Part shown: positions 7,211 through 29,380 of the stretch, one piece after another | Position numbering within the stretch: the stretch's first letter is position 1 | Layout: every line of letters starts with the position of its first letter | From: Acidaminococcus hominis | GTDB taxonomy: Bacteria > Bacillota > Negativicutes > Acidaminococcales > Acidaminococcaceae | DNA: 64,000 nucleotides | NCBI RefSeq assembly: GCF_900291475.1 | Contig: NZ_OLMM01000005.1 | Span: 183,390 to 247,389 of the forward strand | Direction: 5' to 3' | Translations under genes and position numbers: made by a program | Notes under the pieces: generated by a model | Databases searched by the model: none | What the model saw: only the letters and a program-made list of their open reading frames with translations | Told to the model about the DNA's origin: nothing

Positions 7211-7489
7211 ATGGATCCTTTGGCACATGTATTTCATCCCGGCGATATTGTCCGGCATTTCAAATGGGAAACCTTGACTGACGAGGAAAAGAAAACCAAC
7301 CGGTATCTGTATCGGATTATTGGCCCCGCCGTCCATACGGAAACCCGGGAACCCCTGATGGTCTACCAGGCCCTGTATGGGGATTTTGGGGTGTACGCCC
7401 GGCCTTCCGCCATGTTCTACAGCGAAGTGGAACACGACAAGTACCCCCAAATCCAGCAGAAATACCGTTTTGAAAAGCTGCGGAAATAA
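7211..7489 (+). CDS. DUF1653 domain protein
   Basis: A 92-residue soluble protein recognised as DUF1653 by its layout: FHPGDIVRHFKWETL near residue 8, YRIIGPAVHTET, PLMVYQALYGDFGVYARP and MFYSEV. The family is a small beta-rich fold of unknown role. GAAGGAGAGGG precedes the start. It follows the EamA gene closely. The window gives no further hint of its function. Confidence 0.8.
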   Translation: MDPLAHVFHPGDIVRHFKWETLTDEEKKTNRYLYRIIGPAVHTETREPLMVYQALYGDFGVYARPSAMFYSEVEHDKYPQIQQKYRFEKLRK

Positions 7490-7515
7490 AAAGGTAAACC
7501 TATAAATATATATGG

Positions 7516-7544
7516 TTGACACAAATAAGAAATGCTTCTATACT
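7516..7544 (+). promoter_or_regulatory. Strong sigma-A-type promoter
   Basis: TTGACA (7516-7521), exactly 17 bases, then TATACT (7539-7544). Predicted start is near 7551. It drives a non-coding stretch that ends in a terminator before the next gene. Confidence 0.85.
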
Positions 7545-7550
7545 GGGAAG

Positions 7551-7660
7551 CAGAAAACCCCAGGAATGCAGCGGCATTCCTTACCCCCATCTTCCCTCAA
7601 GGAGGGGGAACCCCTGCAAAAAACAAGTCCGGTCATTGGTGGCCCCGGGCTTGTTTTTTT
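7551..7660 (+). ncRNA. Candidate stand-alone structured small RNA (~110 nt)
   Basis: Between a consensus promoter and a strong terminator lies a short transcript with no plausible coding frame. Visible pairings are GCAG (7550-7553) with CTGC (7614-7617), a seven-pair hairpin GGAATGC/GCATTCC with loop AGCG (7563-7580), and a C-run/G-run domain. In that domain two C-runs (7558-7561 and 7584-7588) can each pair with the single G-run at 7604-7608, or CCCTC can pair with GAGGG inside it. The G-run follows AAGGA, so a Shine-Dalgarno-like AAGGAGG is partly sequestered. It does not match 6S, SRP or tmRNA or the common riboswitch cores I know. It could be an sRNA or a leader that terminates before the M24 peptidase gene, 135 bases further on. 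Confidence 0.55.
7623..7660 (+). terminator. Terminator of the candidate small RNA
   Basis: AACAAGTCCGG pairs over eleven positions with CCGGGCTTGTT (one G-T), followed by T7. Confidence 0.9.
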
Positions 7661-7794
7661 ATGTCCGGCAGGGGAAATTCACGGTTTTTCAAGAAAATTG
7701 CTTTTTATCCGTAATTGTCATATGATAAAGAAATCAAAGTAGTATTTTTGGGAGGCCTCCGGGGCCCTTCCTGAAATAGAATGGAGAATGCAGG

Positions 7795-9060
7795 ATGGAT
7801 AACGAAATGATACTGACCGATGACTTGCGCCGGGTGCCCCGGGAGGAACTGGACCGGCGGCTGGAGCAGCTGCGCAGAGCCCTGACCCAGGAGGACCCGG
7901 GGTGGCAGCTGGCGGTGGTGACCGAAAAGACCAGTATGTACTACTATACGGGAACCATGCAGGAAGGCGCCTATCTGGTGCGGCCCCAGGATGCGGTGCT
8001 GTGGGTCCGGCGGAGTCTCAGACGGGCCCGGAACGAATCCCTGCTGCCCGCCAGCCAGATTCGTCCCATGCACAGCTTCAGACAGGCGGCGGTCTACTAT
8101 GACGATGAGCCCCCGGAGCGCATCTACCTGGACGAAAAGCACACTTCCCTGGAGTGGCTGGGGCTTTTTGGCAAATACTTCCAGACGGAGCGGTGGCAGC
8201 CCTTGAACAAACTGCTGACCCGGCTGCGCAGCGTAAAAAGCCCCTACGAGCTAGCTCTCATGGAGCGCAGCGGCCGGATTCACCAGCAGGTGCTGACCCA
8301 GGAGGTAACCGGTCTGGTCCACACGGGCATCAGCGAGGCGGAACTGGCCATTCAGCTGTATTGGAAAATGGTCCAGCAGGGCAGCCAGGGTATTGCCCGT
8401 ACCAACCGGCCCACCGGGGAAGATGTGGTGGGGCTTACCTCCTTTGGCAAAAGCGCCCTGGTGCCCACGGCCTTTGACGGTCCCGGGGGCACAGATGGCA
8501 CCTGCATTGCCATGCAGAGCATCGGTTCTGCCTTCCGGTTTTTGAAGCCGGGTCGGCTGATTTATTTGGACATTCCCTGCGGCTTTGACGGCTACACCAC
8601 GGACAAAAGCGTGGTGTACTACTACGGAGACCTGGCAGCGGATCCTCAGGGGGAGGAAATCCGCCGGGCCTACGCCTACTGTGTGGCTCTGGAGCAGGAA
8701 ACGGCTTCCCTCCTAAAGCCCGGAGCGGTGCTGGGGGAAATCTACGACCAGGTGATGGGCCATTTTGACCATCGGTACGACGGTATTTTTATGAACGGGG
8801 GAAAATTCCTGGGCCACAGCGTGGGGCTGTGCCTGGATGAAACCCCAGTAATTGCCGGCGGCGTAAGGGACCGGGCAGAGGAGAATATGACCTTTGCCCT
8901 GGAACCCAAAATCGCCCTGCCGGGCATCGGCATGGTGGGTACGGAAAATACCTACCGGATTACCAGTAAGGGTGCGCTCTGCCTCACAGGCGGCCCTCAG
9001 GAGCTGGTGATAATCCCTGCGAAAGGGTCTTCACCAGAGTCTGAAAAAATGATAAAATGA
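7795..9060 (+). CDS. M24-family aminopeptidase (Xaa-Pro type)
   Basis: 421 residues. An N-terminal creatinase-like domain (about 1-150) is followed by a pita-bread M24 catalytic domain. The five metal ligands expected of the family are visible: D259 in YLDIPCGFDGY, D270 eleven residues later, histidine in FLGHSVGLCLDETP, glutamate in FALEPKI and glutamate in GMVGTENTY. It should therefore be an active dinuclear-metal peptidase acting on N-terminal X-Pro peptides or a related dipeptide. GGAG lies nine bases before the ATG. The gene is downstream of the candidate small RNA and may be read from that promoter by read-through, or from an unseen one. Confidence 0.85.
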   Translation: MDNEMILTDDLRRVPREELDRRLEQLRRALTQEDPGWQLAVVTEKTSMYYYTGTMQEGAYLVRPQDAVLWVRRSLRRARNESLLPASQIRPMHSFRQAAVYYDDEPPERIYLDEKHTSLEWLGLFGKYFQTERWQPLNKLLTRLRSVKSPYELALMERSGRIHQQVLTQEVTGLVHTGISEAELAIQLYWKMVQQGSQGIARTNRPTGEDVVGLTSFGKSALVPTAFDGPGGTDGTCIAMQSIGSAFRFLKPGRLIYLDIPCGFDGYTTDKSVVYYYGDLAADPQGEEIRRAYAYCVALEQETASLLKPGAVLGEIYDQVMGHFDHRYDGIFMNGGKFLGHSVGLCLDETPVIAGGVRDRAEENMTFALEPKIALPGIGMVGTENTYRITSKGALCLTGGPQELVIIPAKGSSPESEKMIK

Positions 9061-13728: not shown

Positions 13729-16700
13729 ATGAGAGCCATTCATAAGATTTTGGTCCCCAACCGAGGGGAAATCGCCATTCGTATTTTTCGTGCCTGTCAC
13801 GAACTGGGCATTCGTACGGTAGCGGTGTATTCCAAAGAAGATATTCTGTCCCTGCACCGCAGCCGGGCTGATGAAGCCTACCTGGTGGGCCGGGGGAAAA
13901 AGCCTGTGGATGCCTATCTGGATATTGAAGATATCATCCGGATCTGTAAGGAACACGAGGTGGATGCCATTCATCCCGGCTACGGGTTCCTGGCGGAAAA
14001 TGCCCGGCTGGCCAAACGCTGTGAAGAAGAAGGCATTATCTTCATTGGTCCCCGGGTGGAACACCTGATTATGTTCGGGGATAAGGTCAATGCCCGGATC
14101 CAGGCCGAAAAGGCTGGGATTCCCATGATTCCTGGCACCCAGGGTGCCGTCAAGAGCTTTGCTGACGTAAAGGCCTTTGCCGAAAAGGTGGGCCTGCCGG
14201 TGATGATCAAAGCCGTCAACGGCGGCGGCGGCCGGGGGATGCGGAACGTAGATCGGATGGAAGACCTGGAAGAAGCTTATGAACGGGCCAAATCCGAAGC
14301 CAAAATGGCCTTTGGGGATGACGATATCTACGTGGAAAAATGCATCATGAACCCCAAGCACATCGAAGTCCAGATTATGGGCGACGAACAGGGGAATGTG
14401 GTCCATCTCCACGAACGGGACTGCTCCATCCAGCGGCGGCACCAGAAGGTCATTGAAATGGCGCCTGCCTGGTCCCTGCCCCAGAGCCTGCGCCAAGCCA
14501 TCTGTGACGCAGCCCTGAAGCTGATGAAAAACGTCAAGTACCTGAACGCCGGCACGGTGGAATTTTTGGCCGACCAGGATGAAAAACATTTCTACTTCAT
14601 TGAAGTGAACCCCCGGGTGCAGGTGGAACATACGATAACGGAAGCCATTACGGATGTGGATATCGTCAAGACCCAGATTCTGGTGGCCGAAGGCTACGCC
14701 CTGACAGATCCGGAAGTCCATGTGGGCCGCCAGGAAGACATTCCCTGCAACGGGGTAGCCATCCAGTGCCGGATTACCACGGAAGATCCCCAGAACAACT
14801 TTATGCCGGATACGGGCAAGATCATTGCCTACCGCAGCGGCGGCGGCCCGGGCATCCGGCTGGATGCCGGCACGGCCTATACGGGTGCCGTCATTACCCC
14901 CTATTACGATTCCCTTTTGGTGAAGGTCACCGCCCATGCCATGAACGCCCAGGACACCATCCACCGGATGCTGCGCTGCCTGGAAGAATTCCGCATCAGC
15001 GGCGTTAAGACCAACATCTTCTTCCTGAAAAATATGCTGAAGACAGCGGCTTTTGCAGCCGGGGCCTGCGATGTAAACTATATTGATCGGCATCCGGAAC
15101 TGCTGGTGGATCCGGAAGAAGTAGATGACCGGGGGACCCGGCTCCTGTCCTACATTGGAAAAATTACCGTCAATGGCTACAAGGGCAGTGGGCACCAGCT
15201 AAAACCCGACTTCCAGCCCCTGCGCCAGCTGCCGGCCACAGGAAACTGCCCCAAGGGCAGCCGGCAGGTACTCCAGGAACTGGGACCGGAGAAGTTTTCC
15301 CGCTGGATCCAGGACCAGAAGGAAGTGCTGTTTATGGACACCACCTACCGGGATGCCCATCAGTCCTTGCTGGCTACCCGGATCCGGACCCACGATATTT
15401 TGAACGCCATTGGCTATACGGCGGAGCAGGTGCCTCAGATCTATGCCTTTGAAAACTGGGGCGGGGCTACTTTTGATGTGGCCTACCGGTTCCTGGACGA
15501 AGATCCCTGGGAGCGGCTGCGCCAGATGCGCAAGGCGGCGCCCAATATCCTGTTCCAGATGCTGACCCGGGGGGCCAACACCGTAGGCTATACCAACTAT
15601 CCCCCGGAAGTGGTAACCCAATTTATCGACTTGGCTGCCCAAAACGGGGTGGATGTATTCCGGATTTTCGACTGCCTGAACCAGCTGGACCATATGGCCC
15701 TGTCCATTGAAGAAGTCCGGAAGCAGGGCAAGGTGGCAGAAACGGCCATCTGCTATACCGGGGACGTACTGGATGACCGGCGGCAGAAATATTCCCTGGC
15801 CTACTACACCCAGCTGGCCAAGGAAATGGAAAAGGCCGGGGCCAACATTATCGCCATCAAGGATATGGCGGGGCTGTTAAAACCGGAAGCGGCCTATGCG
15901 CTGGTCTCCGCCCTGAAGGACGCCGTGGACCTGCCCATCCATCTCCACAGCCACGAGGGCGGCGGCTGCACCCTGTACAGCTATGCCAAGGCCGTAGATG
16001 CCGGGGTGGATATCCTGGATGTGGCCACCAGTGCCCTGTCCAACGGCACCAGCCAGCCCTCTATGACGGCCATGATCTACGCCCTGTCTAACCATCCCCG
16101 CCAGCCGCAGATGAACCTGGAAGCCCTGGAAAACATCGACCGGTACTGGCAGGTGGTCCGCTCCTATTATGCCGGGGTGGACAGCAAGATGGCCAGCCCC
16201 AACACCACGGTCTTCCAACATGAAATGCCCGGCGGCCAGTACTCCAACCTGCGTCAGCAGGCTACGGCAGTGGGCCTGGGTGCCCGCTGGCCGGAAGTGT
16301 GCCGGATGTACGCCCGGGTGAACCAGCTGTTTGGAGATGTCATCAAGGTGACCCCGTCTTCCAAGGTGGTAGGGGACATGACCCTGTTCATGGTCCAAAA
16401 CAACCTGACGGAGGAAGATGTCTTGAACCGGGGCGAAACCCTGGACTTCCCCCAATCCGTGGTGGACTTCTTTGACGGCAAGCTGGGGATTCCCTATGGG
16501 GGCTTCCCGGAAAAACTCCAGAAGGTTATCCTGCGGGGGGCTCAGCCCCACTTGGAAACCCCGCCGGTGCCGGTGGACCTGGATAAGGTCCATGCAGAAA
16601 TGAAGGCCCTGCGTATGCCGGAAACGCCGGAAGCGGAATCCAGCTACTGCATCTACCCCAAGGTCTACAAGGACTTTATCCAGCGCTACCACCAATATGG

Positions 16701-17151
16701 GGACCTGTCCATCTTGGATACGCCTACCTTCTTCTTCGGCATGAAACCCGGCGAAGAAATTCAAGTGATGATGGACGGCAAAATGGTGCTGATTCGCCTG
16801 AACCATATTACCCGTCCTACGGAAGAGGGTTACCGGGAAGTGCAGTTTGAAATCAACGGTATGCCCCGGGAACTGAAAATCCGGGATGCCAAGGCTTCGG
16901 AAGGCACCACGGCAGCCCGCCGGGCGGATCCTACGGTGCCTGGGGAAGTGGGGGCCACCCTGTCCGGCTCCGTTCTCCGGGTATTGGTGGACAAGAACAG
17001 TGTGGTGAAGAAGGGCGATCCGCTGCTGGTAACGGAAGCCATGAAGATGGAAACCACCCTGACCGCTCCCATCGACGGCCTGGTAACCGAGGTATTGGTG
17101 AAAGCCGGCAGCCGGATTGCTTCCGGAGACCTGCTGGTGGTGATTGAATAA
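13729..17151 (+). CDS. pyc: Pyruvate carboxylase
   Basis: 1140 residues, a full-length single-chain biotin enzyme that carboxylates pyruvate to oxaloacetate. Domain order: biotin carboxylase (about 1-450, with ATP-grasp loop KAVNGGGGRGMR), carboxyltransferase (about 525-800, starting DTTYRDAHQSLLATR, with metal-site histidines in HLHSHEGGG), the conserved PC domain, and biotin carrier domain with biotinyl lysine K1106 in EAMKM. GTAAGGAGGAG precedes the ATG. It has its own promoter and terminator. In a glutamate fermenter it would link pyruvate to C4 acids and refill the pool used for amino acid synthesis. No frameshift seen. Confidence 0.97.
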   Translation: MRAIHKILVPNRGEIAIRIFRACHELGIRTVAVYSKEDILSLHRSRADEAYLVGRGKKPVDAYLDIEDIIRICKEHEVDAIHPGYGFLAENARLAKRCEEEGIIFIGPRVEHLIMFGDKVNARIQAEKAGIPMIPGTQGAVKSFADVKAFAEKVGLPVMIKAVNGGGGRGMRNVDRMEDLEEAYERAKSEAKMAFGDDDIYVEKCIMNPKHIEVQIMGDEQGNVVHLHERDCSIQRRHQKVIEMAPAWSLPQSLRQAICDAALKLMKNVKYLNAGTVEFLADQDEKHFYFIEVNPRVQVEHTITEAITDVDIVKTQILVAEGYALTDPEVHVGRQEDIPCNGVAIQCRITTEDPQNNFMPDTGKIIAYRSGGGPGIRLDAGTAYTGAVITPYYDSLLVKVTAHAMNAQDTIHRMLRCLEEFRISGVKTNIFFLKNMLKTAAFAAGACDVNYIDRHPELLVDPEEVDDRGTRLLSYIGKITVNGYKGSGHQLKPDFQPLRQLPATGNCPKGSRQVLQELGPEKFSRWIQDQKEVLFMDTTYRDAHQSLLATRIRTHDILNAIGYTAEQVPQIYAFENWGGATFDVAYRFLDEDPWERLRQMRKAAPNILFQMLTRGANTVGYTNYPPEVVTQFIDLAAQNGVDVFRIFDCLNQLDHMALSIEEVRKQGKVAETAICYTGDVLDDRRQKYSLAYYTQLAKEMEKAGANIIAIKDMAGLLKPEAAYALVSALKDAVDLPIHLHSHEGGGCTLYSYAKAVDAGVDILDVATSALSNGTSQPSMTAMIYALSNHPRQPQMNLEALENIDRYWQVVRSYYAGVDSKMASPNTTVFQHEMPGGQYSNLRQQATAVGLGARWPEVCRMYARVNQLFGDVIKVTPSSKVVGDMTLFMVQNNLTEEDVLNRGETLDFPQSVVDFFDGKLGIPYGGFPEKLQKVILRGAQPHLETPPVPVDLDKVHAEMKALRMPETPEAESSYCIYPKVYKDFIQRYHQYGDLSILDTPTFFFGMKPGEEIQVMMDGKMVLIRLNHITRPTEEGYREVQFEINGMPRELKIRDAKASEGTTAARRADPTVPGEVGATLSGSVLRVLVDKNSVVKKGDPLLVTEAMKMETTLTAPIDGLVTEVLVKAGSRIASGDLLVVIE

Positions 17152-24065: not shown

Positions 24066-25424
<1,359 letters not shown>

Positions 25425-29115: not shown

Positions 29116-29380
29116 AAAAAAAGTCCCTCAGCTTGGCTGAGGGACGGAAGAACCGCGGTACCACCCTGTTTCCCTGCGGCTGCAGGGCACTTGGGCACGT
29201 GAAGACGTGCTTCCGGTAACGGGGAAATGGCCGCCCAGACCTACTGCTGTTTCGGCCTGGAGCCTCCGGGAGGAGCTTCCTCCCAAGGGTTTCGCCGGCT
29301 TGCACCAGCCGCCGGCTCTCTGCGGAAAACCCTGGGGAGTACTATTCCCATCATAGGCATTTGCTGTTTGGTAGTGAATT
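29116..29380 (-). promoter_or_regulatory. T-box leader of ilvB2-ilvN2-DUF815
   Basis: On the minus strand the T-box motif CAGGGTGGTACCGCGGTTC lies at about 29168-29150. It is followed by a terminator (GTCCCTCAGC with GCTGAGGGAC) and T7. Stem I parts AGAGAGCCGGC and GTGCAAGCCGGC are visible, as is a CTCC region matching the candidate specifier zone of the other two leaders. Confidence 0.92.

Follow-up and report, generated by a model that had tools for sequence, protein, structure and literature searches.

Iron has repressor-controlled sparing RNAs: in systems of the RyhB type, the iron-sensing repressor Fur controls a small RNA that is made on starvation and that represses mRNAs of enzymes using the scarce cofactor. 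Other small RNAs, the C-rich ones of Firmicutes such as RsaE/RoxS, carry a UCCC-type element that can pair with Shine-Dalgarno sequences. For a vitamin, the counterpart of the iron RNAs is, in the literature that we searched, limited to motif predictions for biotin in Staphylococcus aureus. The operators of the biotin regulator BirA are palindromes with the printed consensus TTGTAAACC-[N14/15]-GGTTTACAA, and some of the sites listed with this consensus have GTTgAC halves (PMC545781). Their spacing is described as different between Escherichia coli and Bacillus subtilis (PMC4016012). BirA motifs were predicted at the promoters of two S. aureus RNAs, sRNA207 and RNAIII (PMC5826253). These predictions were the only precedent recognised in our search of the literature on BirA with small RNAs, on biotin regulons, and on small RNAs of Acidaminococcus and Negativicutes, which covered mostly papers outside subscription.

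Here, we describe a locus of the gut bacterium Acidaminococcus hominis that resembles each of these systems in part. It lies in a stretch of 64,000 nucleotides, hereafter the window, and, judged by its sequence, it is a new gene for a small RNA, with a promoter of the BirA type. As in the BirA regulon, the operator has the form and the overlap with the −35 box found at bioB, and the genome encodes a bifunctional BirA with a helix-turn-helix domain; the difference is that the operator here governs a non-coding RNA instead of a gene of biotin synthesis or uptake. With the S. aureus RNAs, as they are described, it shares a small RNA promoter with a predicted BirA site. The latter are motif predictions only, whereas the Acidaminococcus site is common to five genomes and has the bioB layout, a comparison that is made by description and not by sequence. 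The logic is that of RyhB and Fur, i.e., a cofactor-sensing repressor over a small RNA expected to appear on starvation, with biotin in place of iron and with no target that stands out here. Finally, like RsaE/RoxS, the RNA has an element of the UCCC type, which could pair with Shine-Dalgarno sequences, but it has no Rfam match and another regulator.

The transcription unit (positions 7493–7660 of the window, plus strand) was delimited from computed sequence features and comprises a promoter, a non-coding RNA of about 110 nt, and a terminator. The sigma-70 promoter consists of a −35 box TTGACA (7516–7521) and a −10 box TATACT (7539–7544), separated by 17 nt and matching at 11 of the 12 box positions. 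The promoter scan found four promoter-like sites between 6000 and 9500, against 2.3 (sd 1.8) in shuffled sequences, and this one is the best of the four. The RNA extends from about 7551, a start placed from the position of the −10 box, to about 7660. It folds into two hairpins followed by a terminator hairpin with a T-run, and its minimum free energy of −44.1 kcal/mol (z = −3.05) was equalled by none of 200 shuffles. The first hairpin occupies positions 7562–7581. The second, at 7584–7608, pairs CCCCC with GGGGG and presents an apical loop CCCUC, part of the UCCCUC motif (7593–7598) that we regard as a candidate seed. The intrinsic terminator (7618–7659) is visible in the folds and absent from the list of a simple terminator scan. 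Two genes of the same strand flank the unit: upstream, a gene encoding a DUF1653 protein (7211–7489), and downstream, a gene encoding an M24 metallopeptidase (7795–9060; PF00557 and PF01321), both identified by Pfam-level annotation and orthologues. Both the window RNA and its counterparts in relatives have the sequence features of a small RNA: they are short and non-coding and have their own promoter and terminator.

The initial annotation of the locus had proposed this promoter and a strong terminator about 110 bases further on, and both proposals hold. It had also seen two C-runs competing for one G-run, which is contradicted by the ensemble: G7604–7608 pair at 96–97% with C7584–7588, and the other C-run, 7594–7598, is unpaired at 94–99% (the adjacent U7593 is mostly paired, with an unpaired fraction of 0.19). 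The proposed layout was that of a regulatory RNA or a metabolite switch. A metabolite-sensing riboswitch or RNA switch would account for a short structured RNA with a terminator, but we deem it very improbable, given that the ensemble contains no competing pairing, that neither an aptamer nor an alternative pairing was found, that the downstream genes differ between loci, and that Rfam gives no match. At the gathering threshold, the whole window matches only two T-boxes, far from the RNA locus, and a relaxed search of positions 7450–7780 gave six hits, all far under their gathering scores. The RsaE/RoxS family is absent from both sets of matches. The earlier remark that the RNA could not be matched to a known class agrees with these searches. 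It seems that the link to a metabolite is made by a DNA operator, through biotin and BirA, and not by the RNA. The two T-box leaders themselves (25158–25397 and 29137–29363, minus strand) are above the Rfam gathering score and belong to a known class.

The absence of a coding frame, also claimed initially, is true in substance and not to the letter. Frames are open at the locus, for example 7512–7742 (76 aa, including an ATG at 7566), and they run through the terminator; none was seen, by eye, to be kept in relatives. The frame starting at ATG 7566, open through the terminator to 7742, is the element that could make this a short coding transcript for a small protein. We found by eye no suitable ribosome-binding site at this ATG, and the frame starting at an ATGAG shared by relatives stops after about 10 codons in genome G005 and about 20 in G003 and G007. 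A coding role is, in our view, highly improbable.

The key part of the locus was overlooked in the initial annotation: an operator of the BirA type lies over the −35 box. The pattern search, the layout at bioB, and the printed consensus all point to a BirA-type operator, GGTAAACC-N13-GGTTGAC, at positions 7493–7520 of the plus strand, the right half of which overlaps the −35 box. In five Acidaminococcus genomes, i.e., the window genome (G000) and four relatives, the right half of GGTWAACC-N13-GGTTGAC forms the −35 box. When nine Acidaminococcus genomes are searched without mismatches, these five have the pattern, each a single time and always at the RNA locus, and the other four lack it. When as many as two mismatches are allowed, the operator pattern by itself shows no enrichment (14 hits in the window genome versus 32 for the reversed control). 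The site is a palindrome of the BirA kind with a spacing of 13, versus 14 or 15 in the printed consensus, and the spacing is the same at bioB in the genus. The region upstream of bioB reads GTTAACC-N14-GTTGAC, with a distance between cores and an overlap with the −35 box identical to those of the RNA operator. This layout was found in eight genomes (G000 and G002 to G008, 8 of the 10 stretches fetched) and by eye in G001; bioB was identified by Pfam in G000 and by BLAST or by eye in the others. BirA is present in all nine Acidaminococcus genomes, and the protein of the window genome has a DNA-binding domain (Pfam HTH_11, with BPL_LplA_LipB and BPL_C).

A similar operator site, one base wider, is found at bioY of the biotin operon in the loci of seven genomes. 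Near a second bioY (L138, L148, L151, L152), there is a palindrome GTAAAC-N16-GTTTAC in G000, G005, G007, and G008. We excluded these palindromes from the operator count because they lie inside an apparent upstream reading frame; each may be an intragenic BirA site or reflect coding constraint.

We searched 380 genomes of Negativicutes for the joint operator-promoter pattern GTWAACC-N14-GTTGAC-N18-TATAMT with at most one mismatch. It was found in 59 genomes, at 78 sites (row count), and the reversed-pattern control gave zero in every row. The window genome has exactly two such sites, bioB and the RNA promoter, and the latter matches without mismatch. We examined 70 of the 78 sites (those of G248, G253, G257, G273, G325, G366, G367, and G371 were left out) and called the genes downstream by tblastn over the 900 bases following each site. 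The calls include 22 BioB, 20 BioY, 6 EcfA, and 2 BioD, and the match starts at most 350 bases downstream in 48 of these 50 cases (the exceptions are L238 and L269). With 50 of 70 sites placed before biotin genes, the joint pattern is a high-precision marker of biotin genes. The remaining 20 sites comprise six short terminated RNAs, two that run off the contig, eight before a membrane protein, and four before other frames, one of which reads by eye like BioW. Five of the six RNA sites occupy one shared position in five Acidaminococcus genomes, and the sixth is elsewhere in a sixth genome. Biotin control of the RNA promoter is strongly suggested.

To compare the locus among the nine Acidaminococcus genomes, we located the equivalent spacers by synteny, using the neighbouring DUF1653 and M24 peptidase proteins. 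Queried at the DNA level against 61 relatives, the locus had nothing but short matches beyond its own genome (best E-value 0.003), and none of the 13 matches that we viewed had the promoter-RNA layout. In G003, G005, G007, and G008, the spacer between bioA and the peptidase gene contains the palindrome and a sigma-70 promoter, followed by a short RNA that ends in a terminator. The RNA directly follows the biotin operon, which has its own operator at bioY. The same spacer shows by eye no such layout in G002, G004, and G006; G001, in which no close peptidase orthologue was found, falls outside this comparison. Across the four relatives, identical columns make up 62% of the RNA body, 72% of the terminator, and 62% of the operator and −35 box, against 24% of the spacer between the promoter boxes and 33% of the region from the terminator to the start of the peptidase gene. 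Their consensus fold has 36 pairs, two of which are changed on both sides, each in one sequence, apparently G005 for both. It includes a hairpin CCG-UCCCUC-CGG with an invariant loop, and the corresponding stem, that of the second hairpin, is kept via the two compensatory pairs. The folds of the single sequences beat shuffles, with z between −4.4 and −6.7 (in G005, 1 of 200 shuffles was equally good). Rfam gave no match on the loci of the four relatives.

The window RNA has no recognisable sequence homology to the RNAs of the four relatives outside the promoter and the motif. A covariance model of the four gave it 14.4 bits when searched in 1.2 kb with no filters, did not report it over the 64 kb with default filters, and did not match the RNA of G004. 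This model is dominated by the terminator and matches at many places in genomes of the family; it is therefore unusable for finding further members, and we rejected it for that purpose. The comparison with the equivalent spacer of relatives, suggested in the initial annotation, reveals a conserved RNA in four genomes, but one with which the window RNA cannot be aligned beyond the promoter and the motif. The regulatory RNA of that annotation fares well as a stand-alone RNA, since four relatives have an RNA at the equivalent position, its body is conserved, it shows two compensatory pairs (in a single sequence), and the promoter is of the BirA type. The metabolite switch does not, for the reasons given above. 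In G003, the bioY gene of the biotin operon (G003:C4:663082-663515) looks frameshifted, since it matches as two overlapping pieces in different frames.

The RNA could also be the leader or attenuator of the M24 peptidase gene, with BirA controlling the promoter and the terminator setting read-through. In each of the five genomes with the RNA here, the peptidase gene indeed lies downstream of it in the same orientation. We regard this explanation as unlikely: the sixth RNA precedes a flavodiiron-type gene, and no alternative anti-terminator pairing was seen in the ensemble. By eye, there is also a CGTGGTA after the terminator in the four relatives, a possible extended −10 promoter for the peptidase, and in the window a possible TTGCTT-17-TATGAT after the terminator, which the promoter scan does not list. 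Furthermore, the peptidase genes of G002, G004, and G006 have, by eye, no such element upstream.

The genomic context of the window RNA bears on another alternative, in which the BirA promoter is a relic left when biotin genes moved or were lost, the terminator arose by chance, and the RNA is functionless. In the window genome, the biotin operon is absent beside the RNA. The bioA gene, 65% identical to that of G008, is on another contig, where it follows a gene that by eye resembles bioD and that has a BirA-like site of its own. These facts, together with an RNA that cannot be aligned with those of relatives beyond the motif, speak for a relic. However, in the four relatives, the RNA directly follows a biotin operon that has its own bioY operator, and its body is conserved, whereas in the window the operator and promoter boxes match the pattern without mismatch. 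We consider a relic unlikely.

The sixth RNA is in G004, where a BirA-type promoter with one mismatch lies between a rubrerythrin gene and a flavodiiron-type gene, away from the bioA-peptidase place. The terminated RNA behind this promoter differs from the others, is about 105 nt long, and folds with z = −5.52; in it, UUUCCCUC is unpaired, in a single-stranded linker. The gene downstream therefore differs by locus, an M24 peptidase in five genomes and a flavodiiron-type protein in the sixth. As a side observation, the bioB gene of the window genome (L155) is apparently placed between NAD synthase-like and rubrerythrin-like genes, by eye, and like neighbours flank the sixth RNA and the flavodiiron-type gene in G004 (L279; two G004 genes were identified by Pfam, the rest by eye). 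These shared neighbours could be a sign that promoters have been shuffled around biotin genes.

All six RNAs contain UCCCUC. The motif falls in a loop or linker of the four relatives' consensus fold, as it does in the window RNA and in the G004 RNA. It is largely unpaired in the latter two. Among single folds of the four relatives, the minimum-energy structures of G003 and G008 form the UCCCUC loop, that of G007 does not but its centroid does, and the CCC is paired in G005. The motif arises by chance in 240 of 5,000 shuffles of the window RNA and in 552 of 5,000 of the G004 RNA (5–11% per RNA), and a CCCUC hairpin loop in 50 of 2,000 shuffles of the window RNA body and 19 of 1,000 of the full RNA, rates that are to be read as those of a motif spotted after the fact. 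The recurrence of UCCCUC across the six RNAs is suggestive, not strong.

Our preferred reading is that the locus is probably the gene of a small, C-rich, trans-acting RNA of the BirA regulon, made when biotin is scarce. The computed features are the promoter and terminator, the form of the operator, the genus- and class-wide link to biotin genes, and the RNA conserved in four relatives; from them we infer the binding and repression by BirA, the transcription of the RNA, its action in trans, and the use of UCCCUC as a seed. When biotin is plentiful, BirA with biotinyl-AMP would sit on the palindrome over the −35 box and shut the promoter. Under scarcity, the promoter would open together with those of bioB and the other biotin genes, giving an RNA of about 110 nt ended by the terminator. 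Its C-rich UCCCUC element could then pair with the purine-rich ribosome-binding sites of target mRNAs and lower their translation; such a function in trans is our best guess. The RNA appears to be behind the same kind of switch as the biotin genes, and cells may thus make a regulatory RNA when biotin is short. The promoter layout common to bioB and to the same RNA in five genomes makes the biotin response of the RNA directly testable.

A more specific and far more tentative proposal, unlikely as a whole, is that this RNA spares biotin. On starvation, the release by BirA of a C-rich small RNA would lower the main biotin-consuming enzymes (in this genus, the glutamate-fermenting decarboxylases of the sodium-pumping kind and pyruvate carboxylase), and biotin would go where it is needed. 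Within the genus, where it stands at two unrelated loci, this type of RNA would have originated or relocated repeatedly, with only the promoter and the UCCCUC seed being kept. Since Acidaminococcus has biotin-dependent decarboxylases, such a response could be of central importance to its physiology. All five genomes searched have carboxyltransferase genes of two types, the methylmalonyl-CoA-decarboxylase type and the GcdA type (named by eye from sequence and size). Two of the five also have a gene resembling pyruvate carboxylase, which in the window lies at 13729–17151 (named by eye in the same way).

We computed the pairing of three accessible segments of the RNA with seven candidate starts in the window genome, taking as background 34 of the 48 window genes, those with a good ribosome-binding site. 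A duplex computation over the 48 window genes had given unrealistic long-loop duplexes, and the short accessible segments replaced it. None of the seven starts stands out with any of the three segments beyond what is expected from 21 comparisons, and the pairing energies of the gcdA, mmdA, and pyc starts are within the background of the 34 genes. The strongest pairings among the 21 comparisons are with biotin genes: the bioA start with the loop segment (−15.6 kcal/mol, with 0 of 34 background genes as strong), and the 5′ end of the RNA with the starts of bioY (1 of 34 as strong) and bioD (2 of 34).

The class-wide search also brought up sites of interest beyond the RNA. The eight sites before a membrane protein (L217, L219, L233, L236, L244, L247, L250, and L256) were unmatched by our reference proteins. 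By eye, the protein behind these BirA-type promoters resembles the substrate component of an ECF transporter, which makes it a candidate for a further transporter of biotin or of a precursor. At L238 and L257, from two genomes that belong to a different family of the order, a BirA-type promoter with no mismatch precedes bioY, and in L238, the BioY match starts 466 bases past the −10 box, behind a leader with, by eye, long inverted repeats.
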